Assembly: GCF_024500045.1 (NCBI RefSeq)
Contig: NZ_JTEO01000004.1
Coordinates: 620,001-684,000, forward strand
Reading direction: 5' to 3'
DNA: 64,000 bases
Origin: Methanolobus chelungpuianus
GTDB taxonomy: Archaea; Halobacteriota; Methanosarcinia; Methanosarcinales; Methanosarcinaceae
The notes below the pieces were generated by a model, which was not told where the DNA came from, searched no databases, and saw only the letters and a list, made by a program, of their open reading frames with translations. The position numbers and the translations under genes are program-made. Positions within the stretch are counted from its first letter, which is position 1. Every line of letters begins with the position of its first letter. Shown here piece after piece: positions 5,059-63,910 of this stretch.

Positions 5059-6282
5059 ATGTTAACCCCGGATATAACTCTCATTTACATCATATTCATC
5101 TCTGTTTCGCTCTCAGCAGGGATAGCAGCCATTTACTTCTGGGTGAAGGTCTATTACGAGACAAAGAAAGGGTCCATAGCATGGCTGCTGCTTGCACTCA
5201 CAGCGATCTTCCTCATAACCACGTCTATTTTCCCTTCCGTGGCGGTCAGTGTTCCCGACCCAACCGTTTCAGAGACGATCCTTATCTATCTCGGCTTCTG
5301 GAGCGCGGTCTACACAAGTATATTTGCTGCAGCAGGTTTCATGATGTATACTGCCTTCAGGACCATTCCCCGTGAGAAACTGGGAGATTTCCTGCTTGAG
5401 GGTATGGTCTTCCAGAAAAACGAGATTCTGAAGTCCGCTTGTGCAAAGAAATGCTCCCTCTGTGAAAAACATGAGAGCGAGGAGTGCCCGGGATGCGTGA
5501 CTAAGAACAAGCATGCTGAGGAGAGATGCCTGATATATGAATGTGTGGTTGACAAGGGCATGACCTCATGCATGGACTGCGACGTGATGGATACATGTAG
5601 CAGGTATGAGAGGGAGATTGAAAAGTGTCCCATGAATGACAGGGTGGGAGCCTTTGCAGAGTTCGAGCAGACCGCAAAACTGTTCAGGAGATCCACTCTA
5701 CTTGAATATACGCCCCATATGAGATACGAGGATGCTGTCATCGAGATATGCCTGAGGCTCTATGGTGAGATGGTCAATACCGTACTTGTATCCACCCAGC
5801 CAAGGACAGCCCTCTACAGGGAAAAACTTGCCGACCTCATAGATGTGGGGGCAATGAAGTTCATAGAAATATCCCCTACCGGAAAGACAGTTTCCGAAGA
5901 TAGCGGGATAGTCAGGCTGCCTGTCAGTGAGCTGGATAAGTTCTTCGACCTTACAAGCAAACTGCCTAAGGACTGTGCCATCATATTCGAGCCTCTCACA
6001 CACCTGATAGTGAGTGAAGGGGAAGTGGAAATATATGACTTCGTATCACGGATGGCAGAGAGAGCCAGTGTCAGCGAGCTCCTGCTTATAGGCCTCTTGA
6101 ACAAGCCTGCCCATGACGAGAAGACCGTTTCGAGGTTTGAGGGCCTTTTCCTCAACATTGCCGATGTCGTGCAGTCAAGGATACGTATTGTAAAAGGCGG
6201 CAGGGAAGAGTATGTGCGGTTCTATGTGGGCGAGAAGTTCTACATGGAGCAGACCGAAGAAAGTCAGAGAGCAATGCAGTGA
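5059..6282 (+). CDS. Membrane protein with Cys-rich linker and DUF835 domain
   Basis: A 407-residue protein in three parts. The N-terminus has three hydrophobic segments (about residues 5-30, 38-60 and 70-98), so it sits in the membrane. Residues about 127-193 contain many cysteines in C-x2-C and C-x4-C spacing (CAKKCSLCEKH, CPGC, CMDCDVMDTC), enough for one or two metal sites. The C-terminal region, about 225-395, matches the archaeal DUF835 domain, with the TVLVSTQPR start, the IIFEPLTHLI strand and a final helix. Its function is not known. Its position between cheD and another cheC suggests a sensor or adaptor linked to taxis, possibly redox- or metal-responsive; that is inference. Confidence 0.75.
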   Translation: MLTPDITLIYIIFISVSLSAGIAAIYFWVKVYYETKKGSIAWLLLALTAIFLITTSIFPSVAVSVPDPTVSETILIYLGFWSAVYTSIFAAAGFMMYTAFRTIPREKLGDFLLEGMVFQKNEILKSACAKKCSLCEKHESEECPGCVTKNKHAEERCLIYECVVDKGMTSCMDCDVMDTCSRYEREIEKCPMNDRVGAFAEFEQTAKLFRRSTLLEYTPHMRYEDAVIEICLRLYGEMVNTVLVSTQPRTALYREKLADLIDVGAMKFIEISPTGKTVSEDSGIVRLPVSELDKFFDLTSKLPKDCAIIFEPLTHLIVSEGEVEIYDFVSRMAERASVSELLLIGLLNKPAHDEKTVSRFEGLFLNIADVVQSRIRIVKGGREEYVRFYVGEKFYMEQTEESQRAMQ

Positions 6283-9244: not shown

Positions 9245-10549
9245 ATGATGGGGCCAATAACTATCTTCGTAGTAGCTTTGATTTTTATTCTGATACTTAC
9301 CGCACGCTTAAGAATACATCCTTTCCTGAGCCTGATAGGCGGCTCTATGCTGGTCGGGCTTCTGGCAGGCGAGACAGAAGGAACTATGGAGGCTATCGCA
9401 GCCGGAATGAGCAGTATCTTTGCGGAATTCGCCATTGTGGTCACTGCGGGAAGTATAATCGGAGTGATCCTCCAGAGGAGCGGTGCCACTTCTATCATAG
9501 CTGACGATATCATCAGGATATTCAAAAAGCCGGTACTGGCTCTCTTCCTCCTGGGATTCATGTTCGCAGTGCCTATGATGTGCCTGATACTGGCATTCAT
9601 AATCTTTCTCCCGGTGGCCAAGGATCTCAGTGAGAAGCTCAAGCTTAAAAAAGGTGTAACAGAAGGTGCTCTTGCACTGGGCACAATGGTCTCTTTCGGC
9701 CTGATATATCCTTCACCCGGTATCTATGCCTTCGTAAGGGATGTTGGCCTTAGCACTGAGATAAGTGCATTAAGGGTAATGGTCACAGGTGTGATTATTG
9801 CCGTGTTCGTATCCCTTGTAGGATACCTGTACATCATGAAGGTCTTCAGCATGAAGAACAGGGAGGACTATTTCAGGTACACGGCCCCGGAAAGGGACCC
9901 TGCTGTGACGCAAGTCCTCCCCACCAGGGTTGCATGTTATGCACCTATTATTATACCGACGATACTTATCCTTATGCGCATAACCACGCATGCAGACATC
10001 TTCTATTTCATAGGTAATCCAGGCATGGCGCTCATGTCCGGGGCTGTGGTCGCCATGGTCCTGCCCACCAGGAAGTTCTCTTCTGCGGATGTAAGGGCAT
10101 GGGTCGAGAAAGGCATAAGGCGGAGCGGTCTTGTAATGCTGGATATATGCGGCGGCGGAGCCCTCGGGGCAACCCTGGCACTTGCAGGTGTCGGCGAGGC
10201 GCTTGGCGATATGCTGATCACTTCAAGCATACCTGCGCTCTTTATCCCGTTCCTTATCGGAGCTGCTATCCAGACCGTGCAGGGTTCAAGGATGGTAACG
10301 CTCTTCGTTGCTTCGGCACTGGTCGTGCCTATAATGCCACAACTGGGTCTGCCTGCGGAGATAGTGCTCTTTTCCATGGCTTCCGGGACCTTCCTGATAT
10401 CGCATTTCAACGATCCTTTCTTCTGGATACTGGGCGATCTTGCGGATATGGAGACTCCCGAGATATTGAAAACATACACCATGGGCGGCATCGTGATGGG
10501 GCTTAGCAGCATGGCAATTACCAGTATCATCTACTTTGCCTTCTACTGA
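9245..10549 (+). CDS. GntP-family permease
   Basis: A 434-residue integral membrane protein with about 12 hydrophobic segments spread over its full length. The N-terminal HPFLSLIGGSMLVGLLAG segment, the VTAGSIIGVILQRSGA loop and the late SHFNDPFFW motif match the gluconate:H+ symporter (GntP) family. The substrate in a methanogen is unknown; a small organic acid is possible. Its neighbours do not suggest a pathway. Two adjacent ATGs (9245 and 9248) could start it; no clear ribosome-binding site is visible. Confidence 0.85.
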   Translation: MMGPITIFVVALIFILILTARLRIHPFLSLIGGSMLVGLLAGETEGTMEAIAAGMSSIFAEFAIVVTAGSIIGVILQRSGATSIIADDIIRIFKKPVLALFLLGFMFAVPMMCLILAFIIFLPVAKDLSEKLKLKKGVTEGALALGTMVSFGLIYPSPGIYAFVRDVGLSTEISALRVMVTGVIIAVFVSLVGYLYIMKVFSMKNREDYFRYTAPERDPAVTQVLPTRVACYAPIIIPTILILMRITTHADIFYFIGNPGMALMSGAVVAMVLPTRKFSSADVRAWVEKGIRRSGLVMLDICGGGALGATLALAGVGEALGDMLITSSIPALFIPFLIGAAIQTVQGSRMVTLFVASALVVPIMPQLGLPAEIVLFSMASGTFLISHFNDPFFWILGDLADMETPEILKTYTMGGIVMGLSSMAITSIIYFAFY

Positions 10550-50271: not shown

Positions 50272-50988
50272 TCAGTAAATCCAGTTCACATGGCTAACTG
50301 GCAACTGATTTAACTTGTTCTTATAAAACTGCCATTTCGGCATGAATCTGTCCATGAGAACGATAAAGTTTGAGTTATGTGTTGGTTCCAGAAGATGAGA
50401 TAACTCGTGCACTACAATATATTCTAGACATTCAGATGGCTTCTTAGCAAGTTCTGTGTTAAGTAAAATATTACCTGCCTTAGGATTACAGCTTCCCCAC
50501 TTTGTTTTCATCCTTCTTATGAGTAAACGTTCCACTTTAATGCCCATTAGCTTCTCCCATTTGGCGATCAAGGGCAATGCAGCTTTCCTGAGTTGTTCCC
50601 GATACCATGCATCGATAACTTCCTGTTTCTTGTTCTCATCAGCTCCGGGACGTACTCTTAAAATCATCTTTTTGTGCTTCAACTCAACAGATGGTGCTTC
50701 ATCTACTTCAAGAACCTCAAGCAGGTAACGTTTCCCCCATACATAATGACTCTCACGGTCTAGATACTCGCGTGGAGTTTCTCGCTCCTGTTCCTGGAGC
50801 TTTTTCTGTTGCTGTTTTATCCATCCAAGTTTAGAAATTGCAAAGATGCGAATTTTGTCTATGTCCATCCTTAAAGGAGCAGATATTCTGACTTTTCCAG
50901 TGGGTGGGTAAACACTTAGGTGTATGTTCTTAATATCCTTGAAGACTACGTCTGCTGTAATCTCTCCCAGTTGGATCTGAGTGACCAT
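50272..50988 (-). CDS. YgjP-like metallopeptidase (M48 type)
   Basis: 238 residues with the zinc-protease motif VVHELSHLLEPTHNSNF (HExxH plus a downstream His) near residue 200, and the WGSCNPKAGNILLN stretch before it, both typical of the YgjP/DUF45 family. Genes of this family often sit next to hsdR; their target is not known. Its start overlaps the hsdR stop by one base. Confidence 0.88.
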   Translation of the reverse strand: MVTQIQLGEITADVVFKDIKNIHLSVYPPTGKVRISAPLRMDIDKIRIFAISKLGWIKQQQKKLQEQERETPREYLDRESHYVWGKRYLLEVLEVDEAPSVELKHKKMILRVRPGADENKKQEVIDAWYREQLRKAALPLIAKWEKLMGIKVERLLIRRMKTKWGSCNPKAGNILLNTELAKKPSECLEYIVVHELSHLLEPTHNSNFIVLMDRFMPKWQFYKNKLNQLPVSHVNWIY

Positions 50989-53900
50989 CAGTATTCCTTC
51001 TGCGCTTTGATTATAAGGAAGATACGCTCCACTTCATCCGTATTTTGCAGGATTTCATACAAAGCTTGCTTAATGGTCCTTTCCCGCGGTTCCACACCTC
51101 GCCAATCATCTGACCTGACACTTCTCACAGTTTCATCGATCTTTATTGCAAGATCAAGAACAAAGTCTTCTGAAGATGCATATGCTGAGATCCCTTCTGC
51201 CAAGATAGCAGAGTTTTCCCTGAAGGGCTGCAGATTATTATAGAGCGCACGCAGTGCAGGGCTTGCCTTGAGCTGCTGGGGTGTGTTATCCTCATGTCCT
51301 GCCTCGACTTTCTTTACAAGCTCGGCAATCTGCCGCAGGTATTCTTCATACTCTATCGCTTTGGCCTTCCTGGCTGCTATTATCTCGTCCAAGAGAGCTG
51401 ACATCTTCTCATAGAAGGCAGGGTCGTTCAGGTGTTCCTTAATTATCCTGCTGCGGACATTGTTCTCAATGGTCTCTGCGATGGCATTTTTGTTTCCTTT
51501 CAGTCCGTTTAGCTGGGTATCGATGGCTTTGTTGATGCCACTTTTTACAATAAGCTCAAGGAGCGGGATAGTGTCAAAGGATGAGACTTTCCTGGGCTCG
51601 GCTGCCTCTATGTAAGTGTCGATGAGATGACGCATATCAGCCTCGTAGGCTTTCAGGTCGAGTGTTTCGCCACTGGCACGGCGTATTATCTCACGGATGT
51701 TCAGGTAATAGTCTATCTGTTGTCTTATGCGGGCTATACCTGCTTCACTGTACCCGGCAGACTCCAGTTCGTCAGAAATGTTGGCGAAGGCACGGACCAG
51801 TGAGGCTGTGGCCTTGTAGAGGGCTGCACGCTGTGTCTCACGTTCCTGCAGGTCAGTTGGTATCTCAGTGTTGCCGCAGAAGTAATGAATGTGCTCGAGC
51901 TCGCCTTTTGGTGGTTCTACAGGCTCGCATAACAGGAAAAGTTCCTCCAGCGCATTATCAAGACGTTCCCTGCCTTTCTTGAGGCGATCCTGCATTAAAA
52001 CCTCTGGATTGGCACCGCCTGCGCTGTGGTCCAGTTCGGAAGAGTAAACCTGAAGGGCTCCTGTGCCCTTGTCGTTGACAAGGTTCTTGAAAAGGTCCTT
52101 GTAGTCCACGATGTAGCCAAAGTCCTTGTCCTCGCCGTCAAGCCGGTTAGTGCGGCAGATCGCCTGGAAAAGCCCATGATCCCTCATTGACTTGTCAATA
52201 TAGAGATAGGTGCATGGTGGTGCATCAAAGCCGGTGAGGAGTTTGTCTACCACGATAAGCAACTTCATGTTTGCCGGTTCCTTGGTAAACAGGGCTTTTG
52301 CCCTCTCTTCGTAGGTCTCGGTCTTTGTCATGCTTGGCGCGGTATCGATGTCCTTGAGAAGCTCTGTATAGGTGTTGTAGAGGAACTGTTTCTCGGTCTC
52401 GGTGTTGGCACCGGTATCCTCTTTTGTCACATCCTGTGTCTGTGGGTTGTAGGATGTCACCACGGCACATCTGCCTTTAAAAAGTGTTTTCTGGAACAGG
52501 GAGAAGTACTTGCAGGCCTCATAGATGCTTGATGCCACAAGTATGGCATTGCCACGTTCGCTGGACAGGCGAGGCTTTACATTGAAATCAAATATTATGT
52601 CGCTCACCACTCGGTCCATTCGGGAGCGTGAGCTGAGCACCTTCTGCATGGTACCCCAGTGATTCTTCAGCTCATCCTTCTGCCAATCATTAAGGCCCTT
52701 TGTCTTTGCCTCGAACCATGCGTCGATTTTCTCCCCTGAGCCAAGGCGCTGGTCGATATCGCGCGCTTCGTAGACTAGGTCAAGCACTACCTTGTCCTCT
52801 ACAGCCTCGCAGAACTTGTAGGTGTGGATGTAGCCGCCGAAGACTTCCAGGCTTGTCTGCTTGTCCTTCTTGAGCAGCGGTGTGCCGGTGAAGCCTATGA
52901 AGACTGCATTAGGCATTATCGCCTTCATGGTTGTGTTCAGTTTTCCACTCTGGGTACGATGGCATTCATCCACGAAGATGAAGACCTCTCCCACAGTTTT
53001 GCTTGGCTGTGCCTTCAGGTCCCTGATGAAAGCATCGAAATCATCAACTCCCTTACGACCGAACTTGTGGACCAGGGAGCATATCAGGCGTGGTGTTGCC
53101 TGGCCGAGCAGGTTCAGAAGCTCCTGGCCACTGGTGGTGCGCCTGATCTTCTCGCCGGCTTCCCTGAACACTCCCTCGATCTGCTTGTCCAGTTCATCGC
53201 GATCTGTGACAATGACAACCCTAGCGTTGGGATTGTTTTCCAATATCCATTTAGCCAGAAGTACCATGACAATACTTTTACCACTGCCCTGGGTGTGCCA
53301 GATTATACCGCTCTTGTGCTGCCTTACATGCCTCTGTGCAGCCTTGACACCGAAATACTGGTGCACCCTGGGCAGTTTCTTGACACCGCCATCAAAGAGC
53401 ACGAAGTCATACATCAGCTCGATGAGCCGGTCCTTACGGCACATCTTCAACAGGTATTTGTCGAGCTTGAACCGGCTGTCGTCCTCCTCGTCTTCTTTCC
53501 ATTTGAGGAAGTACTTCTCAGGTGTGCCGATCGTGCCGTATCTTAAGCCCTCGGAATCGTTGCCTGCAAAGATGAACTGTACGGTACTGAAGAACCATTC
53601 GTTGAACTCAGGCTTCTGGTTGGAGATATTCTGCCTGATGCCATCTCCGATACTCACCCTGCTGTTCTTCAGCTCCAGCACCCCTACTGCAATACCGTTA
53701 ACATAGAGCACGATATCAGGCCGACGCTCGTGATTGCCCCGTAGCGTGACCTCCTCGGCAATTGCGAAGTCGTTCTTCTCCGGCTCCTGCCAGTTAATGA
53801 GCTGAACACTCTCTGTACATTCATCCACCTCAGTCTTCACAGGCACACCATAGCGCAGCAGGTTGTAGATAGCCTGGTTATTGCCGTAAAGACTCCGGCT

Positions 53901-54116
53901 GTGATTGTCAGCTTCTGTGCGCACGCGGTACAGTGCCATACCGATCTGCTTTTTGGTGTAGCCGTTCTTTTCCAGCCATGTGCCGAGCAGTCCTTCCTCG
54001 ATGTTGCTGTTGTTGTCGCGGTCGGTCCAGTCCCCAAGGTAACGATAGTTAAGTTCGTCCCGGAAAAGGGAAACGATGCGGTTCTGGGTGACTCGTTCAG
54101 GCTGGCCGATTTTCAT
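50988..54116 (-). CDS. hsdR: Type I restriction enzyme HsdR subunit
   Basis: 1042 residues. It cuts DNA after ATP-driven translocation. The N-terminal nuclease carries RRPDIVLYVNGIAVGVLELK (D...E-x-K) near residues 130-155; the helicase motor has IIWHTQGSGKSIVM (Walker A) and VFIFVDECHRTQ (DECH box), then the motif TGTPLLK; a long helical C-terminus binds the HsdM/HsdS core. A good ggagg site precedes the ATG, inside the end of the remnant gene. Confidence 0.95.
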   Translation of the reverse strand: MKIGQPERVTQNRIVSLFRDELNYRYLGDWTDRDNNSNIEEGLLGTWLEKNGYTKKQIGMALYRVRTEADNHSRSLYGNNQAIYNLLRYGVPVKTEVDECTESVQLINWQEPEKNDFAIAEEVTLRGNHERRPDIVLYVNGIAVGVLELKNSRVSIGDGIRQNISNQKPEFNEWFFSTVQFIFAGNDSEGLRYGTIGTPEKYFLKWKEDEEDDSRFKLDKYLLKMCRKDRLIELMYDFVLFDGGVKKLPRVHQYFGVKAAQRHVRQHKSGIIWHTQGSGKSIVMVLLAKWILENNPNARVVIVTDRDELDKQIEGVFREAGEKIRRTTSGQELLNLLGQATPRLICSLVHKFGRKGVDDFDAFIRDLKAQPSKTVGEVFIFVDECHRTQSGKLNTTMKAIMPNAVFIGFTGTPLLKKDKQTSLEVFGGYIHTYKFCEAVEDKVVLDLVYEARDIDQRLGSGEKIDAWFEAKTKGLNDWQKDELKNHWGTMQKVLSSRSRMDRVVSDIIFDFNVKPRLSSERGNAILVASSIYEACKYFSLFQKTLFKGRCAVVTSYNPQTQDVTKEDTGANTETEKQFLYNTYTELLKDIDTAPSMTKTETYEERAKALFTKEPANMKLLIVVDKLLTGFDAPPCTYLYIDKSMRDHGLFQAICRTNRLDGEDKDFGYIVDYKDLFKNLVNDKGTGALQVYSSELDHSAGGANPEVLMQDRLKKGRERLDNALEELFLLCEPVEPPKGELEHIHYFCGNTEIPTDLQERETQRAALYKATASLVRAFANISDELESAGYSEAGIARIRQQIDYYLNIREIIRRASGETLDLKAYEADMRHLIDTYIEAAEPRKVSSFDTIPLLELIVKSGINKAIDTQLNGLKGNKNAIAETIENNVRSRIIKEHLNDPAFYEKMSALLDEIIAARKAKAIEYEEYLRQIAELVKKVEAGHEDNTPQQLKASPALRALYNNLQPFRENSAILAEGISAYASSEDFVLDLAIKIDETVRSVRSDDWRGVEPRERTIKQALYEILQNTDEVERIFLIIKAQKEY

Positions 54117-54361
54117 TACTGTGCCTCCAATGCTAAGAAATCAGGTTTTGCCCGGATCATGGACATCATCCTGTCTCTGGTAGTAATTGGGATAGTATTT
54201 GGGGTAGCGATTGGGACAGTACTGCCCCAATCAAGAAAGGTTGTACGCATATGGGCAGGATTTGCCTGGAACGTCAGCATGAAACCTGCCATCCAAAAAT
54301 CATATTCTAGAGGCTGTATGCTACAGCATTCTATCCATTCAACCTGCTGATTCTCTTTCAT
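54116..54361 (-). pseudogene. Internally deleted RecG/AlbA_2-like ATP-binding gene
   Basis: An 81-codon frame beginning MKENQQVEWIE, the standard opening of AlbA_2-domain/RecG-like ATP-binding proteins, then jumping straight to sequence like the C-terminal end of that family: PLEYDFWMAGFMLTFQA followed by PITTRDRMMSMIRAKP, resembling the TT-repeat and winged-helix linker. The roughly 300 residues normally between are missing, and the final helix-turn-helix is cut short. The start overlaps the hsdS stop and the stop overlaps hsdR, so the remnant still links the two genes translationally. Confidence 0.6.
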
Positions 54362-55605
54362 ACCAATCGAATCCTCCCTGTAAGCAGCTCCCGCATCATT
54401 CCCTGCTTCACCCTGCGGCTCTTTTCAAGTTTCTCTTCCAGCGCGGCGATCTCCGCATCCATGTCTGAAAGGACGGTGGCTATGCGAACCTGGTTATCCA
54501 TTGATGGTAGCAGTACTGGATAATTTCCCACAGCGGCTTGTGATAGTCCAAAAAATGTAGTTCCGGATTTACTTTCCTCGACGAAACTTTTGAACCGCTG
54601 AGAGCACAATTGATAATACAAATACTTCGGATTGTAGCTATCTTTGATTGGACGGAAAAGAAGCAAATGGCTGTTAAGTGAGGCTTTGTGTGGGTAGGGA
54701 ATTGTGTCGATGTAAAGAACTTTGCCGATTGTGCCGTCTTTAGTCATGAGCACATCAGAAGGTCTTAGTTGAATATCACTTGCAATTTCATAGCGGGATT
54801 CAGAAACGTGATACACGTCGTTCCACCTAATTGCTCCGTCTTTGAAGTTCATACCTGTGATTAAGAATGGATCTTCTTCATTGGTAGTGAACTCTATTTG
54901 CTTCAATCCCTGCCATCCAATTCGTCCTTTCAAGGAGGACACTTCTCGTAGCAATCGTATGATATCTCCTTGCTTTGGACGGAGTAACTCCTGCATAGCA
55001 CCCTGCTTGATCTGGAGTTTCTTGGCGATTAGCTGCTCCAGTGATTCGATAAGTGTACCAGCATCGGTTAGTGCTTGGGCAATGGCTTCTTGTTCAGCCA
55101 CAGGCGGAACTGGAATCTGTATTGAATTACAATTATTTTTATTTAAGTAAGAAACAGATGTTTTGGTTGCCAAACCTTCAATCTGGAATCTTTGTGCTGG
55201 AATGACATTCAATAGGAATGATGCATTTATTTGTGAAGTAGGGATAAAAGCATGTAACTGTTGATTAATCACAATTTCATTAGTAGTAATTGCTGTAATG
55301 CCAAGCTCTCCAGCACATGACATCAAAACCGAACCACTTGGAACAACTTTTGAGCCTATAGATCGTGCCTCATCTCTCGAAATACATAAACCTATTCTAG
55401 AACTAGTTACGTTTCTTCCATTATCCAAATCAGGTATCGTAATCCAAGGTATTTCACCATCGAAATTTCGCGGTTTATTACGCCCAGGAACTATGAAATC
55501 ACAAACTTCTCCAACTCTTCTTACAGTCCAATCCTTTGGTATGACTCCAATCTCAGTCTGCTTATATCCCTGGGGGATACTCTCGGTAACACATTCTGCA
55601 CTCAT
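54358..55605 (-). CDS. hsdS: Type I specificity subunit HsdS, copy 1
   Basis: 415 residues with two target-recognition domains separated by conserved helices: the first half ends with EQEAIAQALTDAGTLIESLEQ and IKQGAMQELL, the second with ATVLSDMDAEIAALEEKLEKS and VKQGMMRELL. HsdS sets the DNA sequence recognised by the methylase and nuclease. The opening (SIPQGYKQTEIGVIPKDW) is nearly repeated at the start of copy 2. Confidence 0.93.
   Translation of the reverse strand: MSAECVTESIPQGYKQTEIGVIPKDWTVRRVGEVCDFIVPGRNKPRNFDGEIPWITIPDLDNGRNVTSSRIGLCISRDEARSIGSKVVPSGSVLMSCAGELGITAITTNEIVINQQLHAFIPTSQINASFLLNVIPAQRFQIEGLATKTSVSYLNKNNCNSIQIPVPPVAEQEAIAQALTDAGTLIESLEQLIAKKLQIKQGAMQELLRPKQGDIIRLLREVSSLKGRIGWQGLKQIEFTTNEEDPFLITGMNFKDGAIRWNDVYHVSESRYEIASDIQLRPSDVLMTKDGTIGKVLYIDTIPYPHKASLNSHLLLFRPIKDSYNPKYLYYQLCSQRFKSFVEESKSGTTFFGLSQAAVGNYPVLLPSMDNQVRIATVLSDMDAEIAALEEKLEKSRRVKQGMMRELLTGRIRLV
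54991..55100. repeat. hsdS central repeat, unit 1
   Basis: The DNA encoding the central helices of hsdS copy 1 is closely repeated at about 56280-56390 in copy 2 (for example gcaccctgctt and gagctg-tccagtgattcgat). Such repeats let target domains be exchanged by recombination. Confidence 0.6.
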
Positions 55606-56930
55606 ACTAATCGAATCTTCCCTACGAGTAGCTCCTGCATCATACCCTGTTTGATACTACGGCTCTTTTCGAGTTCCTCCTCAAGCATGGTAATCTCAGC
55701 ATCCATATCAGAGAGAATACATGCTATTGCTTCTTGTTCTGCAAGAGTGGATGGCAATGGCAATAGTATCTTTCCAAGAGTTTTCGCACCGATATTCGGC
55801 GGATCTGTTCCTGCCATTGCTTCATTCATAGCCTCAACAAAACGGGACATCTGCAATTCATAGTAAATAAAATTCAAATTAGCGGTATGTTTAGTAACTA
55901 TTTTTGCTACTCGTTGGTTGAGTAAGCATGGTAAGTCATTACTAGTCAGTTTTGCAATTTTTAGCTCACCATCTAAAATGGGACGAGTAAGAGCCATAAC
56001 TACATCGCCTTTTTGAAGCAAATAAGATTGGTACTCTCTAATGTAGGATGAAGGTAAAAAAGAGATTTCATTCCACATTATCTTTCTTTTGCCAACATTA
56101 GCTATTTTCAACCAGCGAACTCCATTTGGCACTGTAGCCTCACTTTTAAAAGCATTTCCACCAAAATAAGTAACAACTACAGCAGATTCTACACATTCCC
56201 AATCTTCTGGGACGAGTCCCAATTCTGTCTGCTTGTATCCCCTTTTAATCTCAAATCCCGGCAGCCGCCTCTTCCCCGTCAGCAACTCCTGCATAGCACC
56301 CTGCTTAATCTGGCGTTTCTTGGCGATGAGCTGTTCCAGTGATTCGATGAGGGCATCAGCATCGCTTAGTGCTTGGGCGATGGCTTCTTGTTCGGCTATG
56401 GCTGGTGGAAGTGGAACTGTGAAATGAAGCATGTCTCCAACATTCAAATGTTTCATTGTCGTTCCAGTTTCAATTAGCTTTAGACGAGAGCGGCCGGGTT
56501 TACTGTTGAGGTAATAAGAAATGAATGCTGAAAATGATTTTCTTTTGTCAAACCTTGAAATGATTAGTGCATGACAATTTGAACCTGCTAACGATTCTGG
56601 GACGATTGTGGTCAGCCCCACGTCTCCAGTCTGCACAGTGAGCAAATCACCGCCTTTTAAACATGATTTCATGTGTGCGTTGTGAAAATCTTCAGTCACA
56701 AACTTTATTCCGTGAAAGTTAAACGAATTCTCTTCCACATTGTAGCCTTGGATGTAGAGAATTCCATTATCATTACTTGCATAATGTGTCGTAGCAGTTC
56801 CAACAAAACCATTAGTCATTAGTACTGTCAGACTGCCAAGAGTAGGAGTTTGCCAATCCTCCGGTATCACTCCCATCTCAGTCTGCTTGTATCCGGCCGG
56901 GATGCTCTCAGCAACGCATTCAGAGGTCAT
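55602..56930 (-). CDS. hsdS: Type I specificity subunit HsdS, copy 2
   Basis: 442 residues, same plan: SIPAGYKQTEMGVIPEDW at the start, EQEAIAQALSDADALIESLEQ and IKQGAMQELLTGKRRLPGFE in the middle, a second GYKQTELGLVPEDW before target domain 2, and ACILSDMDAEITMLEEELEKS at the end. The target domains differ from copy 1 and are more AT-rich, so it should recognise another sequence. It overlaps copy 1 by four bases. Confidence 0.93.
   Translation of the reverse strand: MTSECVAESIPAGYKQTEMGVIPEDWQTPTLGSLTVLMTNGFVGTATTHYASNDNGILYIQGYNVEENSFNFHGIKFVTEDFHNAHMKSCLKGGDLLTVQTGDVGLTTIVPESLAGSNCHALIISRFDKRKSFSAFISYYLNSKPGRSRLKLIETGTTMKHLNVGDMLHFTVPLPPAIAEQEAIAQALSDADALIESLEQLIAKKRQIKQGAMQELLTGKRRLPGFEIKRGYKQTELGLVPEDWECVESAVVVTYFGGNAFKSEATVPNGVRWLKIANVGKRKIMWNEISFLPSSYIREYQSYLLQKGDVVMALTRPILDGELKIAKLTSNDLPCLLNQRVAKIVTKHTANLNFIYYELQMSRFVEAMNEAMAGTDPPNIGAKTLGKILLPLPSTLAEQEAIACILSDMDAEITMLEEELEKSRSIKQGMMQELLVGKIRLV
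56280..56390. repeat. hsdS central repeat, unit 2
   Basis: Second copy of the hsdS central-helix repeat. Related 3' helix repeats lie at about 54380-54470 and 55621-55720, and 5' start repeats at about 55554-55605, 56210-56250 and 56876-56930. Confidence 0.6.
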
Positions 56931-58086
56931 GTGTACTTGCCTCCAATTCTTTCTCTATCTTCTCCAGCTGCGCCTTCAATTCCGCCTTGGACGGAAGGTA
57001 GAGCTGGTATTTAGGGGCGAAGATGTTAGCTTCTTTTGGCAGGGTCAGTTCGACCAGTGCATCGTTCTTACGGCGGCAGAGGATAATGCCGATGGTGGGG
57101 AGTTCGTCGGCGGTCTTAACATGGCGGTCAAAGTAGTTCACATACATCTGCATCTGGCCAAGGTCCTGGTGGGTGAGCTTGTCACGCTTCAGGTCAATAA
57201 GCACGTAGCAGCGCAGGAGCCGGTTGTAGAAAACAAGGTCTACGTAGAAGTGGTCATTGTCGAAGGTAAAGCGCTTCTGTCGGCCCTCGAAAAGGAAGCC
57301 TTTGCCAAGCTCCAGCAGGAAAGTTTCCAGCCTGTCGATGATAGCAGATTCCAGGTCGTTCTCTGACCAGTAGGGTCGCTCCTCAAGACCAAGGAATTCA
57401 AGGACCAGAGGATTCTTGATCAGGTCCACCGCCTTCTCAACCACAAGCCCCTGTTCTGCGAGCCTGCGTATCTCTTCCTTGTTGCGGCTCAGAGCCAGCC
57501 GTTCGTAAAGCGAACTTGAGATCTGCCGCTCCAGTTCCCGCACGCTCCAGTGGTTCTGCGTGGCCTCTATCTCATAGAAACGGCGCTCATTATTATTCTC
57601 AATAGTCATCAGAGTCACATAATGTGACCAGCCAAGAGAGAAGCGCTTAAGCAACTCCATCATAACATTCTGCCATGAATCTGCTTTCAAAACAGTCCAC
57701 TCAGATATCGCAGACGGTGTCTGCGATATTGGCAGCAATCCTTCAGACAGGAGTTTTGCATCTTCTATTCCGAATTCCGCAGACATTGTCTGCGAAATCT
57801 TTCTCTGCATCAGGTAGAACTTCCGGCATTGTTCAAGAGTTCTGACAGAAAAGCCTCGCCCTAGTTGTTCTCCTAGTTCGTCGGACAACTGCTTCATGAG
57901 GCCAGCACCATATTCTGCCCTGTCCCCTCCGTTTTGCTCATACTCTACTATATACCATCCAAAAAGCCAGTTGCGTATCACCAGATGTATATCCACGGAG
58001 CGCCCCGCACGCCGCTGCATCTCCTGATGCGTCTGCATACAGAGATTGACCAGTTGCTTGAAGCCGTAGTCATTACCTTCGCTCAT
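56920..58086 (-). CDS. DUF1016 (YhcG-like) PD-(D/E)xK nuclease
   Basis: 388 residues in two parts: an N-terminal helical DUF1016 region (HLVIRNWLFGWYIVEYEQNG, RGFSVRTLEQCRKFYLMQRK) and a C-terminal nuclease core with FYVDLVFYNRLLRCYVLIDLK followed by a Gln helix (DLGQMQMYVNYF), matching the D...D-x-K pattern. The family is common inside type I restriction operons; its precise role there is not settled. It overlaps hsdS copy 2 by 11 bases and hsdM by 4. Confidence 0.93.
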   Translation of the reverse strand: MSEGNDYGFKQLVNLCMQTHQEMQRRAGRSVDIHLVIRNWLFGWYIVEYEQNGGDRAEYGAGLMKQLSDELGEQLGRGFSVRTLEQCRKFYLMQRKISQTMSAEFGIEDAKLLSEGLLPISQTPSAISEWTVLKADSWQNVMMELLKRFSLGWSHYVTLMTIENNNERRFYEIEATQNHWSVRELERQISSSLYERLALSRNKEEIRRLAEQGLVVEKAVDLIKNPLVLEFLGLEERPYWSENDLESAIIDRLETFLLELGKGFLFEGRQKRFTFDNDHFYVDLVFYNRLLRCYVLIDLKRDKLTHQDLGQMQMYVNYFDRHVKTADELPTIGIILCRRKNDALVELTLPKEANIFAPKYQLYLPSKAELKAQLEKIEKELEASTHDL

Positions 58087-60479
58087 ATCTTGAATCCCAT
58101 CCTCTCCAGGTGTCCTTTTACTTTAGCCTCCAGCTCAGCCACACGCTCGGTCATCTGTGGCAGCGGAGTTTCATACCTCTCTGACAGCTCTTTCACACGC
58201 TGAGTCAGAGACTGGCTAATTCGATCCATCTCTCCGTGGACAGCAGCATCCAATGCAGAGAGCCATTTATCATCAACTACCAGCGACTTGATCTCGTCCT
58301 CTGAGAGCCTAGGATACTGTGAATAGGCTTTTGCATCGAGGGCTGCCTCTGCATCCTTGACCTTCTTTCTCAGGTCTGCCTCATCGTTGGCTAGTTTCAG
58401 CCATTCATTAAGCACTGCAGCTTCATCCTTAGCCTCCCGGTCACCTTTGATCTCCTTCAGGCGGGCGCTGACACTTGCCTTGTTCACCTTGTCGAGTTCA
58501 GAAAAGGCACCTTCTTCCCCGCCTTGCTCCTCTTCCAGTTCAGTCCTGCTGGCAGTAACACTTTCCAGTTCGGCTGTGAGCCGGTCGATTTCCTCCTGCT
58601 CTTTAGAAAAATAACGGGCCACGATAAGCTCCTTGGGAACAAGGTCGCATGTCCAGCCCTTGTCCTTCTCCTTGCCCTTCTTGTCCTTCTCGATGATGCG
58701 GTAGGTCTGGGCCTTCCAGCCATCGGCGGAGATCATATAGCAGTCATCCTGCATGGTCTCAGCCCAATAGTCCATCAGGTGCTGATACACATCATAGTGG
58801 TTGATCAGCGGCTTACCTGTGTAATGTGCCAGCAGGCCCTCAGAAAGTTCAGCTATGATCTCCTTGGGATGGTTTTCAGCTTTCAACTGCTTCAGCATGG
58901 CAGAGAATCTTTCACGCCACTGGGCAAAGTGTACATTCATCCCGGCAATGAAGGCAGCAAACTCCGGGTGTTCATATATCGTGGATTTGATAGCAGACTT
59001 ATCCACAGTAAGTTCTAGGTATCCAGGCCGCATATCCCTGAACAGAGCCACACGAAGGTGCGGGCAGACATCCCAGTAACGCTTGAGAGCATCGATATCA
59101 GCACAGGGGATACCTCCATGCAAGTGGCCTTCGATGTCCTGCAGGTCCTCAGCCTGCTGACTGTCAATGTAACGCGGGAGGTTAAGATTGAACTCATTCT
59201 TCTCGATCTCCTCAAGGCTTACCATACGTGAATATTTAGGGACTTCAGTCTGTTTTGTGAAAACATCCACGATCTTATGTATATCCTGGGAACGCAGGCG
59301 GTTCTTGGGTCCGTCCTTCATGAAACCGGCACTTGCATCTATCATGAAGATTCCCTTGCGGTTGTGTGCATTCTCCTTGTCAATGACAATAATACAAGCA
59401 GGGATACCAGTACCATAGAAGAGGTTCGCAGGAAGGCCTATAATACCCTTGATGTATCCCTTGCGCACCAGCGCGCGCCGGATGTCAGCCTCAGCGTTAC
59501 CACGGAACAACACACCGTGCGGCAGGATACAGGCACCTTTACCCGTACTCTTAAGTGAGCGAACAATGTGGAGCAGGTAGGCATAATCTCCCTGCTTGGC
59601 AGGAGGGACTCCGAAAGGCTTGAAACGCTCATGCTCGTCCTTAAGCGGATCAAGTCCCGTACTCCACCGCTTGTCACTGAAGGGAGGATTTGCCACGACA
59701 TAATCAAAGGTCTTGAGCGTCTCTCCGTCCTTGAACTTCGGGTCAGCCAGCGTATTCCCCTGAACTATAAGTGCTTCAGGGTTGTTGTGCAGAATCATGT
59801 TCATTCTGGCCAGACCGGATGTGGCAGAGTCTTTCTCCTGTCCATAAAGGGTGATCTTTGTCCTTGCCTCATCTGCGACCTTCAAGAGCAACGAGCCTGA
59901 ACCACATGTCGGATCATAGGCTGTGGTGGAGCTTGTAGTCTCTGCCTGACGGATACCAAGGATCTGTGCTATAATACGGCTAACCTCAGCAGGCGTGTAG
60001 AACTGCCCTTTGCTCTTGCCGCTCTCCGTTGCAAAGTGCCGCATAAGGTACTCGTAGGCATCTCCAAGGATATCATCGCCTTCTGCGCGGTTCTTCGAGA
60101 AGTCAAGTGCCGGGTTCTCAAAGATCGATATGAGATTGGTAAGCCTGTCAACCTGCTCCTTACCACTGCCAAGCTTATTGGTGTCGTTAAAGTCCGGCAT
60201 GTCGGAAAGTTTGTTGGCACTGACCAGAGGGCCTATTATCTTCTTGTTGATCTGATCGCCGATATCCGGCTTGCCCTTGAGTGCAACCATGTCCTTGAAG
60301 CTTGAACCTGTTGGAATGGTAATGGGTGCGTAGGGCTGACCAGCGTATTTGTCACTGACGTACTTAATGAAAAGCAGCACAAGCACGTAGTCCTTGTACT
60401 GGCTGGCGTCCATACCGCCGCGCAGTTCGTCACAACTGGACCAGAGGGAAGAATAAAGTTCGGATTTTTTCAGGGCCAT
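58083..60479 (-). CDS. hsdM: Type I DNA adenine methylase HsdM
   Basis: 798 residues. It methylates adenine at the HsdS target to protect host DNA. SAM-binding TAYDPTCGSGSLLLKV (near residue 190) and catalytic YVVANPPFSDKRW (near 250) are clear. An unusually long C-terminal region (about 600-798) is charged and coiled-coil-like, with ELEEEQGGEEGAFSELDK and RVAELEAKVKGHLERM. It is the first gene of the operon; gggtga precedes the ATG and TATA-like runs lie 100-190 bases upstream. Confidence 0.95.
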   Translation of the reverse strand: MALKKSELYSSLWSSCDELRGGMDASQYKDYVLVLLFIKYVSDKYAGQPYAPITIPTGSSFKDMVALKGKPDIGDQINKKIIGPLVSANKLSDMPDFNDTNKLGSGKEQVDRLTNLISIFENPALDFSKNRAEGDDILGDAYEYLMRHFATESGKSKGQFYTPAEVSRIIAQILGIRQAETTSSTTAYDPTCGSGSLLLKVADEARTKITLYGQEKDSATSGLARMNMILHNNPEALIVQGNTLADPKFKDGETLKTFDYVVANPPFSDKRWSTGLDPLKDEHERFKPFGVPPAKQGDYAYLLHIVRSLKSTGKGACILPHGVLFRGNAEADIRRALVRKGYIKGIIGLPANLFYGTGIPACIIVIDKENAHNRKGIFMIDASAGFMKDGPKNRLRSQDIHKIVDVFTKQTEVPKYSRMVSLEEIEKNEFNLNLPRYIDSQQAEDLQDIEGHLHGGIPCADIDALKRYWDVCPHLRVALFRDMRPGYLELTVDKSAIKSTIYEHPEFAAFIAGMNVHFAQWRERFSAMLKQLKAENHPKEIIAELSEGLLAHYTGKPLINHYDVYQHLMDYWAETMQDDCYMISADGWKAQTYRIIEKDKKGKEKDKGWTCDLVPKELIVARYFSKEQEEIDRLTAELESVTASRTELEEEQGGEEGAFSELDKVNKASVSARLKEIKGDREAKDEAAVLNEWLKLANDEADLRKKVKDAEAALDAKAYSQYPRLSEDEIKSLVVDDKWLSALDAAVHGEMDRISQSLTQRVKELSERYETPLPQMTERVAELEAKVKGHLERMGFKI

Positions 60480-61438: not shown

Positions 61439-63910
61439 TCATTTGAAAACATTTTCTTGTAGATTAGTGTCACCTTGGCACCTAATGTCACCGAGCTGAT
61501 ATCTTGTCAAGGTGACAGGAGAAGCGCTAGCATCCTCCTCGGTACATGGAGGTGTCACCTTCTCTCTAGAAGACAAGGAAATATCTACTGGTGATAAGGT
61601 ATTATCTCTTTTATCGTCTACTACTATACTATTTTCTATATTATGGAGATATGGATTAGTAATGTGGTCTTCAATTATCGTTTCATCTATCACCTTTTCA
61701 GATGTGATACCCTGGTGATAACTGGGTGATAGAGTGTCATTGTATGCCTTGTCAAAATCTTCAAAGAACTTAGACAAACAATTTTGTAGATTATTCATAT
61801 CAATGACAGCAAACTTAGCATACTTGTTAAAGTCCTCAGTACCATAATAGAGATAGGAGTTTAATTTTTGCCTCTCGTCTTCATCAATTTTTTTATCTGT
61901 GTTTTCCCAGTTGATTTGGACTTTGCTTGTCAGACCGGACTTCCCATCCTTACCGTGCAAAATATTACGTACTGCAGTTTTTCCTACGCCAAAGTGCTTG
62001 ACTAGTTGAGCAATAGTGACACTTGCAGGATATTGCGTATTTTTTGTTGGATACCTGACTTTGTTATTTTGCTCTATGAAATATTGTAAATATTCAAGCT
62101 CCTTTCGTGTTAACTGTGTAGCATTGCTGTCAGCTGACATTGAATATATAGAGATGGCTCTTTCAAAGTCTTCAAGTGTAGCAAAATAAACGCCGTTCTT
62201 TTCCTCTCGCTGGAAGACTTTATAGAGGCAACATGACCTAATCATATCTAGGAATTTTTTTATGTTCCGCAGTTTGGTCTTATCTGCCAGCTTAATTGCC
62301 TTTGCATAAGGGATAAGAATCTCGTAGTCTTTAGCTGATAAGATGTCGTAAATGCATCTACATACCTGCACATCAAAATCACTATAGTCAAATCGGCAGA
62401 CCTCGGAGTCAAGTATGAAATCGGCCACTTTCTCAAGATGGTTAAAATCATTTTTGGTATCAAGTAGTACAAAGCGGTCTGCCATCTGGTCATCGTTGAT
62501 ACCGTTAACACTATTAATAAAAAAAACTTGTCTTTCTGGTGCTTCTAGATCCATGCTCTTACCATTGATCACGGTACCGTGTTTGATTCTCTCTTGGAAG
62601 TTTGAAGTTATCTTCTTGATGGTGTTTACTTGATCCTCATTTGAGTCGTCGTCATCAAGAATATTAATCCTCCTAGGAGTTGCCTTCTTATCATAATACA
62701 TTTTCTTAGCTGACATTGAGCTATTTAAAATGAAACGTGGAGGTAACAGATGAATACATTTATCAAAAGCATCACTCTTCCCTGTACCTTTGTCTCCTGA
62801 TATCTTTACATGCAGGCCCCGTGTATTCGAGATAAACATACTTGCTGCAGCAAGTAAACAACTCCATATAATAGACTCGTCTCCAAGATGGCGCTTTCCA
62901 AATGTATCTCGGATGAACTGTGCAGGATCTCCTTTGTAAAGAATGTCATATGCTGTTTTTAAAACTTCCTGGGGATAAGCTTTGATAATATCCTCTATTA
63001 TCAATTGCTCAGTAACATGATCTCTTTTCTCTGTTACTGGTGTGTACTTTTCTGTCAGGCCATCTATGGCCTTCTTGATGGTGTTCTTTAGGTAAGTAGG
63101 ATGTGTATCCCACTTACTACGATCAAGACTTGACATCCTCATGAGTCTCTCAACTTGACTTTCGTCCTGTGTGTAAAAAGAGATGTAGTTAGCAATACCC
63201 AGATCCGCTTCGCTTGCAGACGGATACGTACTTGTAGAGCCTTCCCACAAAGGTTTAAACTTATCTGCTATTGCAGACCCAAATAACAACGAAAGTATCT
63301 CATTGTCTTCCATAGAGGGACTTTCACTAATTACACTCTGTGGAAACTTGTTTAGATTATCTTTTGGTTTGTCGATTTTATCATAGATGGCTTTAAGAGC
63401 TTCAACAGGTGCATAGTTAATGGTTTTTGGTGTCTCCGGAAGGTGTTGTCCTGTCATTACAAAGAAACGTCCTTGGTCATACATCTCTCTGGGACCAGAT
63501 CTGCAACGATTGTTACTGGGTTTCTTGCCTTTACAGATTACATGTGCACCCTTTCCACTCTGGGAAACCTCAGCATAGCTTTCTAAAAGGAGAATCTCCT
63601 GATAAATATCTTCATCAAATTCCCCTGTCTCCTGGTTTCTTACGTTGTCCCAGTCAATACCTACATAGTCATCGTCGCAAGAAAAAACAAATCCAATGCC
63701 ATGATACAAACCCGTATCCAGAGCTTTAATGCATGCATCAAAGGTGGACCAAGTTGTTGGTTTGTCTGTCGAGGCCTCGAAATTATCGACAGTATAAGGA
63801 ACCTTTCGGGGCTTATTTTCCCCTTTCTTTGAAATCAACTTCCACATTACCCACTGGTCATGCTCCTTCATCTCTTGTGGTATGCCGTCAATATTAGGGA
63901 GAAAATCCAC
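61439..63910 (-). CDS. NrS-1-type primase-polymerase with SF3-like helicase
   Basis: 823 residues starting with GTG, nine bases after ggggag. The N-terminus (MKEHDQWVMWKLISKKGENK, then PRKVPYTV, FSCDDDYVGIDWDNV and HVICKGKKP) matches primase-polymerases of the NrS-1 phage type, with the DxD-like acidic pair as metal site. The middle holds an ATPase: ISGDKGTGKSDAFDK (Walker A, about 370), RRINILDDDDSN (Walker B) and FFINSVNG. The C-terminus has a winged-helix-like QLVKHFGVGKTAVRNIL segment. It should start and extend DNA chains for a phage or plasmid-like element. Confidence 0.8.
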   Translation of the reverse strand: MDFLPNIDGIPQEMKEHDQWVMWKLISKKGENKPRKVPYTVDNFEASTDKPTTWSTFDACIKALDTGLYHGIGFVFSCDDDYVGIDWDNVRNQETGEFDEDIYQEILLLESYAEVSQSGKGAHVICKGKKPSNNRCRSGPREMYDQGRFFVMTGQHLPETPKTINYAPVEALKAIYDKIDKPKDNLNKFPQSVISESPSMEDNEILSLLFGSAIADKFKPLWEGSTSTYPSASEADLGIANYISFYTQDESQVERLMRMSSLDRSKWDTHPTYLKNTIKKAIDGLTEKYTPVTEKRDHVTEQLIIEDIIKAYPQEVLKTAYDILYKGDPAQFIRDTFGKRHLGDESIIWSCLLAAASMFISNTRGLHVKISGDKGTGKSDAFDKCIHLLPPRFILNSSMSAKKMYYDKKATPRRINILDDDDSNEDQVNTIKKITSNFQERIKHGTVINGKSMDLEAPERQVFFINSVNGINDDQMADRFVLLDTKNDFNHLEKVADFILDSEVCRFDYSDFDVQVCRCIYDILSAKDYEILIPYAKAIKLADKTKLRNIKKFLDMIRSCCLYKVFQREEKNGVYFATLEDFERAISIYSMSADSNATQLTRKELEYLQYFIEQNNKVRYPTKNTQYPASVTIAQLVKHFGVGKTAVRNILHGKDGKSGLTSKVQINWENTDKKIDEDERQKLNSYLYYGTEDFNKYAKFAVIDMNNLQNCLSKFFEDFDKAYNDTLSPSYHQGITSEKVIDETIIEDHITNPYLHNIENSIVVDDKRDNTLSPVDISLSSREKVTPPCTEEDASASPVTLTRYQLGDIRCQGDTNLQENVFK

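Follow-up and report, generated by a model that had tools for sequence, protein, structure and literature searches.

An open reading frame of 81 codons, lodged between hsdS and hsdR of a predicted type I restriction-modification operon in a Methanolobus-like archaeon, is probably a young, decaying remnant of an accessory gene, that is, a scar of accessory-gene turnover. The window, by which we mean the whole stretch of 64,000 nucleotides analysed, carries this operon on its minus strand in the order hsdM, YhcG/DUF1016, hsdS, hsdS, remnant, hsdR, ygjP, with neighbours overlapping by 1 to 11 nt; it is assigned to type I because the hsdM, hsdS and hsdR frames are open and contiguous and each has a Pfam match. 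The genes, and the parts of the remnant, are as follows.

58083..60479, minus strand: hsdM (N6_Mtase, HsdM_N)
56920..58086, minus strand: YhcG/DUF1016 nuclease-like gene, between hsdM and hsdS (YhcG_C, DUF1016_N; PADLOC PDC-S02)
55602..56930, minus strand: hsdS, first copy (Methylase_S, two stretches)
54358..55605, minus strand: hsdS, second copy, overlapping the remnant by 4 nt (Methylase_S, two stretches)
54373..54378, minus strand: GGGAGG, Shine-Dalgarno-like, for the remnant, within hsdS (from the sequence)
54116..54361, minus strand: remnant ORF of an SLFN_AlbA_2/RecG-like accessory gene, 81 codons (ORF call, overlaps, homology to the intact gene)
54335..54361, minus strand: N-terminal piece, codons 1-9, MKENQQVEW (9/9 residues and 26/27 bases as in the UBA474 gene)
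54320..54334, minus strand: putative deletion joint, codons 10-14, IECCS (alignments)
54140..54319, minus strand: C-proximal piece, codons 15-74, matching the 451-aa gene of genome G065 at residues 347-406 (tblastn)
54116..54139, minus strand: tail FLALEAQ and stop, in place of the greater part of the winged helix, which is lost (alignment; compare L046, L010)
54124..54128, minus strand: GGAGG, Shine-Dalgarno-like, for hsdR, within the remnant and 7 nt 5' of the hsdR ATG (from the sequence)
50988..54116, minus strand: hsdR, 1042-aa open frame (HSDR_N, SWI2_SNF2, T1R_D3-like)
50272..50988, minus strand: YgjP/SprT-like metallopeptidase gene, overlapping hsdR by 1 nt (YgjP-like)

The two full-size hsdS genes stand in tandem (54358-56930) with a 4-nt overlap, and it is the YhcG gene that separates hsdM from hsdS. 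On the 3' side of hsdR, a gene of 238-242 aa resembling the window's YgjP/SprT-like gene recurs in 10 of the 11 loci listed, and a SprT-family gene also lies 3' of hsdR on an Aliarcobacter plasmid (L091). Upstream of the operon is an 823-aa frame (61439-63910) that gives the impression, on reading, of the primase/helicase of a mobile element.

The remnant starts at ATG and encodes a predicted product of 81 aa. It shares ATGA with the end of the second hsdS (4 nt, 54358-54361) and a single base with the start of hsdR (TAATG, 54116); both overlaps had been claimed in the preliminary description, and both are confirmed on the sequence. An intact gene occupies the same slot in genome G065 (L046 6275-7630), where the order is hsdM-hsdS-451-aa gene-hsdR-ygjP and where, if hsdR begins at ATG, the gene overlaps its neighbours by 4 nt on both sides. 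In Methanolobus sp. UBA474 (L011), the same gene starts right after the hsdS stop and can be followed to codon 391, at which the contig ends. Codons 1-9 of the remnant are identical in protein to residues 1-9 of the UBA474 gene, with agreement in 26 of 27 bases, while residues 15-74 are 72% identical to the stretch 347-406 of the G065 protein (tblastn, E 3e-21). About 330 codons of core are skipped in frame, codon 9 being joined to about codon 341. The preliminary description had seen here the family opening fused to text like its C-terminal end with the core gone, and had explained it by an in-frame internal deletion from a full-length AlbA_2/RecG-like gene. Comparison with relatives upholds both points, a full-length version being present at the same place in G065 and beginning at the identical place in UBA474. 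Its wording of a “C-terminal end” holds for a C-proximal piece only, as the true C-terminus (residues 407-451) is missing.

Very little of any domain survives. The 451-aa protein carries SLFN_AlbA_2 at residues 3-108, HATPase_c_4 at 276-362 and HTH_24 at 396-437, of which the remnant retains only 3-9, about 341-362 and 396-406 in the numbering of the intact gene. Compared with Pfam (E up to 1) and PADLOC (E up to 0.001), the 81 aa match no family. They are unmatched by the SLFN_AlbA_2 model (PF04326), which the intact relative matches at 3-108 with E 3e-14; by HATPase_c_4 (PF13749), of whose residues 276-362 at most about 341-362 are left; and by HTH_24, residues 407-451 being gone. Descent from a gene of SLFN_AlbA_2 type is nevertheless supported by the N-terminal bases, by the E value of the C-proximal part and by the shared operon position.

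At least two large losses and one of 6 nt separate the window's copy from its intact relatives, and the frame is open after all of them. The second large loss is that of most of the winged helix (residues 407-451), and the last seven codons before the stop are without clear match. At the joint one reads the filler ATA, then GAATGC, which is common to codons 341-342 of the intact gene, then two codons as against four in relatives, two codons thus being gone. The hexamer TGAATG is present at both breakpoints in G065, so the short direct repeat that one might look for is there; a plain repeat-to-repeat deletion is nonetheless rejected, as the window retains the GAATG core of both copies together with the 3-nt filler.

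On the reading that we prefer, a full accessory gene (SLFN_AlbA_2 / RecG-C-like / winged-helix) would once have been inserted between hsdS and hsdR, and the losses would represent either deletions inside that gene or illegitimate recombination as accessory genes were exchanged. The remaining product would have no protein function, and the ORF would survive mainly through its youth, helped by selection that removes deletions harming the hsdS end or the hsdR start, within a slot that as a whole appears to turn over among relatives. Counting against this young-scar reading, an open frame through two large losses and one of 6 nt is not the commonest random outcome. The order of the losses may be visible elsewhere. 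At L089 5052-5258 and L090 7105-7299 (both reverse-complemented) lie C-proximal pieces of the window's AlbA_2 subfamily that break off inside the winged helix at about the same point as the window's copy, and each is followed by the start codon ATG of a further AlbA_2 gene or gene piece; given these, the winged helix may have been lost before the core.

Among 111 genomes of the family, the 81-aa query matches five (E up to 0.001): the window's own, G065, UBA474 (G008), Methanosarcinaceae UBA470 (G068) and Methanolobus psychrotolerans (G006), all classed within the window's own genus and family. The gene is intact in G065, intact as far as seen in UBA474, in a two-end form in UBA470 and a hybrid in M. 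psychrotolerans. The same query brought up two bacterial loci beside those of M. psychrotolerans, UBA474 and UBA470; one, in a member of Thermoanaerobaculia, contains a long frame of this type, the other, in a member of Bacteroidia, a weak match only. A search of 392 phylum genomes with the C-proximal part matched 84, most of the listed matches starting past the linker and resembling a generic winged helix. Plasmids gave no match to the C-proximal part, and viral contigs none to the 81 aa; the intact gene found two viral candidates, none confirmed. Junction DNA matched three plasmid records over 53-65 bases; the matched stretch is annotated as hsdS or hsdR in two of them and has no annotation in the third.

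The UBA470 locus (L009 8001 to the contig end) resembles the window closely: after hsdS comes a two-end form, MKENQHVEW-V-ECREHGIQPPEYDF, with the filler GTA at the same joint, the common layout being GAATGG-NTA-GAATGC. It differs in that its contig stops before hsdR. Over 40 codons, its C-proximal part differs from that of UBA474 by 2 synonymous and 0 nonsynonymous changes, and from that of the window by 9 synonymous and 15 nonsynonymous changes. By this nearness to UBA474 the UBA470 collapse looks recent and is possibly independent of the window's, in which case the joints would be two separate events at almost identical bases; or else recombination moved one of them. Near-identical joints despite so large a mismatch of the C-proximal parts are not explained by one simple event, and this tells against the young-scar reading. 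In M. psychrotolerans (L010 7833-8321), as in the window, a C-proximal part of the same subfamily stands directly before hsdR, here with a 4-nt overlap. Unlike in the window, the front of this 162-aa frame is not an AlbA_2 start but a diverged copy of the hsdR start (first 40 residues), and the rest comprises the C-proximal part and a winged helix that has been kept. The real hsdR comes after the hybrid, and TATCGA-like bases are common, by eye, to both sides of the joint.

Branch counts over 60 codons, with G065 as outgroup and two ambiguous sites dropped, give 10 nonsynonymous and 3 synonymous changes on the window branch and 5 and 7, respectively, on that of M. psychrotolerans, where neutrality predicts a nonsynonymous share of 0.73. 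Ten or more nonsynonymous changes of 13 would have a probability of 0.003 at an omega of 0.2, and five or fewer of 12 a probability of 0.02 under neutrality. Pairwise omega of the C-proximal part is 0.35-0.50 when the window is in the pair and 0 to 0.14 when it is not; the former is below 1 because such pairs include time before the collapse. Between the window and M. psychrotolerans, omega is 0.044-0.049 for hsdM, hsdR and ygjP. Two of 50 segments of 60 codons in hsdR have at least 14 nonsynonymous differences, the remnant having 17.3, and in none of the 50 do nonsynonymous differences equal or outnumber synonymous ones. Constraint thus marks the enzyme genes, whereas none can be detected, from so few changes, in the remnant along its own branch; the neutral reading carries the caveat that its counts are small, with 13 changes on the window branch. 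Nor can the open frame itself serve as proof of selection: it would stay open with a probability of 0.76-0.80 after 13-17 neutral changes, and of 0.69-0.85 for 22-10 changes. Silent divergence is lower in the AlbA_2 part than in hsdM in all nine pairs having both (0.28 vs 0.96 for the window and M. psychrotolerans; 0.22 vs 0.57 for UBA474 and G065). This points to transfer of the accessory gene between operons after these had parted, or to a lower silent rate of that gene.

How common such leftovers are was surveyed from the start of HsdR, which as a query gave matches in 11 of the 111 genomes of the family at E up to 1e-30 and in 18 of the 392 of the phylum at E up to 1e-50. With seven genomes common to both searches this makes 22 hsdR loci, namely the flanks of 20 together with L046 and the window. 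These 22 loci, together with L009 and L011, were searched in all frames with four AlbA_2-type proteins, at a threshold too strict for a piece of only 9 codons like the window's. AlbA_2 traces lie in or adjoin the slot in 10 of the 22. Two loci have intact genes only (G065, G278); seven have at least one broken gene (window, G109, M. psychrotolerans, G189, G130, G147, G369), with an intact gene beside the broken one in G147 and G369; and in G420 a trace at the contig end is assigned to neither class. The other 12 show no AlbA_2 trace, two of them with little or no upstream sequence. Eight broken pieces are counted across the seven loci, the second-type C-terminal end fused on in G130 being excluded. 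All eight keep the C-proximal part, and in three (window, G130, one in G147) the start is also visible.

The two-end forms of G130 and G147 belong to another family than the window's. That of G130 (L087 8513-9193), just before hsdR, joins an AlbA_2 start (MTETESIEYK...) to a C-proximal part of the same type and an end of a second type over 226 aa; an AlbA_2-type match of 25% identity between hsdM and hsdS of the same locus falls outside the tally. As a query, the 226-aa protein matched 8 of 33 genomes of the G130 family, and among these 33 a start plus C-proximal part over a short frame (residues 1-75) was found, besides G130, in G147 only. The G147 piece (L089 reverse-complemented, about 5264-5686) has an internal stop and is not adjacent to hsdR; a GCCGGTC-like stretch is common, by eye, to both sides of its joint. 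The AlbA_2 piece of G189 is a C-terminal half; it contains a frameshift, though the part next to hsdR is open, and the fetched stretch of this locus shows no hsdS. The C-terminal piece of G109 covers the region of the window's C-proximal part, and between the YhcG-like gene and this piece, before hsdR (L066 about 9290-9704, reverse-complemented), there is a duplicated hsdS 3' tail, as if recombination had used hsdS ends. In G105 (L047 6875-7104), an AlbA_2 start after hsdS ends at codon 50 in unrelated sequence, near the contig end. Otherwise the slot holds GmrSD-type DUF262 genes, YhcG, other genes without name, or nothing (one DUF262 gene was named by Pfam, the rest by likeness on reading). 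AlbA_2-type genes occur outside type I operons too, one of three plasmid neighbourhoods opened, out of 12 plasmid records, being a type I operon. To judge from these alignments, the spot before hsdR is one that repeatedly gathers AlbA_2 leftovers.

The preliminary description went on to suppose that the remnant is retained because translation through it couples hsdR. In its plainest form this makes the remnant a translational bridge, in which ribosomes translating it would re-initiate on hsdR and its amino-acid sequence would be irrelevant, an explanation that we consider unlikely. Type I gene coupling has been reported for hsdM-hsdS of EcoKI (PMC3510504). Coupling of the remnant to hsdR is possible because the hsdR start lies by an upstream stop, at -23 to +4 nt from that of the preceding gene or remnant, in 17 of the 19 loci scored of 22 (the L062 start is given 3 nt off, its class unaffected). 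The gene after hsdM is that close in only 6 of 14, a comparison restricted to ORFs of at least 150 or 180 aa, which smaller genes may escape. The run of overlaps from hsdS through the remnant to hsdR is unbroken, and neutral amino acids in an open frame are the pattern expected of a pure bridge. In-frame joints are seen in the window, UBA470, M. psychrotolerans, G130 and G147, although this tally is biased, several cases having first been spotted as open frames.

Set against this, the window's hsdR has a GGAGG of its own, 7 nt upstream of the ATG, and ATGA joins hsdS straight to hsdR in 6 of 19 loci (G103, G080, G017, G242, G296, G437), so that no bridge is needed; and a neutral frame would, as computed above, most often stay open. 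The frameshift in G189 and the stop in G147 are weak evidence against a bridge, the former leaving the hsdR-proximal part open and the latter lying away from hsdR. One might still suppose that structured mRNA hides the hsdR Shine-Dalgarno sequence and forces coupling. Predicted mean pairing of the GGAGG is 0.83, 0.88 and 0.20 with 150, 100 and 60 nt of upstream sequence, respectively, but shuffled upstream sequence pairs similarly (mean 0.77), and 108 of 300 shuffles reach the observed 0.83, which is therefore ordinary. Folding of the region as a whole does not stand out in the window (z -0.37) or in G065 (0.40), and is stronger than in shuffles in M. psychrotolerans (-2.18). Retention for coupling is thus possible but unlikely, given the neutral counts, the hsdR ribosome-binding motif and the direct hsdS-hsdR junctions; decay of a young scar fits with fewer assumptions. 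More doubtful is the general form of the idea, that hsdR is translated efficiently only from an upstream frame ending at its start and that AlbA_2 genes collapse repeatedly to in-frame bridges. If it were true, exchanged slot genes would have to leave an open hsdR-proximal 3' piece, and the selected scars would do nothing except deliver ribosomes; coupling, if real, would account for the persistence of the pieces adjacent to hsdR.

It is very improbable that the remnant is a functional small protein, on the model of AlbA_2 C-terminal pieces acting alone, for example as winged-helix operon regulators. The 162-aa hybrid of M. psychrotolerans does keep its winged helix (HTH_24, E 2e-10), its branch looks constrained, and G109 retains a C-terminal piece spanning this region. 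But the window's copy lacks most of the winged helix and any Pfam match, its own branch is at the neutral ratio, and the constraint in M. psychrotolerans may predate that gene's collapse. A conserved small protein family can be rejected, the two-end form being confined to the window and UBA470 among the 111 family genomes, with the branch counts given above; the 81-residue protein is not conserved as such.

That the frame is a chance short ORF or assembly artefact merely resembling the AlbA_2 family, as its 81 codons, its lack of a family model match and a genome in 71 contigs might suggest, is hardly credible given the 26 of 27 bases at a fixed place, the E value of 3e-21, the same kind of two-end form in UBA470 and an 879-kb contig around the window, and it is ruled out by G065, where the intact gene occupies that place. 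No second close copy of the missing core is seen in the 99.99% complete genome, the best other match being 28% identical.

Taken as the young scar of an accessory gene, the remnant illustrates the gain, breakage and overwriting of accessory genes in a restriction operon whose core enzyme genes remain under constraint, and it gives, with its relatives, a small series at one place: intact, two-end, hybrid and stub. We found no description of AlbA_2 remnants between hsdS and hsdR in the open-licence literature, and within that literature the recurrent broken AlbA_2 pieces before hsdR are the part for which we found no prior description.

Accessory genes at this position have known counterparts. 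The rlo genes of Campylobacter jejuni type I loci were reportedly treated by Miller and co-workers in 2005, and rloA of that species is, we presume, an AlbA_2 gene. The R-linked ORFs (rlo) of Campylobacter sit between hsdR and hsdS and include DUF262 genes (PMC5183652, PMC4619093), and in the type I loci of C. jejuni the DUF262/GmrS gene is rloF (PMC5183652, PMC4619093, PMC2928727). The remnant, lying between hsdS and hsdR, has the position that defines an rlo gene (PMC4619093, PMC5183652). The rlo genes are like the window's locus in being accessory genes at the same position of a type I operon, with DUF262/GmrS represented both among them and among the window's relatives; they are unlike it in that the window's gene is broken and its host an archaeon. 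Another counterpart is found on plasmid pCNAC48 of Aliarcobacter cryaerophilus, where the order is hsdS, KAP NTPase, “ATP-binding protein”, HsdR and a SprT-type protease, and where the “ATP-binding protein” (WP_263515085.1) is 49% identical to the G065 gene. Both of these genes stand directly before hsdR, and it is from such a gene that the window's 9 and 60 codons derive; relative to either, the window has lost almost the whole of the two main domains and the greater part of the winged helix. Judged by these alignments and by its place in the operon, the window's remnant is a broken member of the Aliarcobacter- and rlo-like class of accessory genes.
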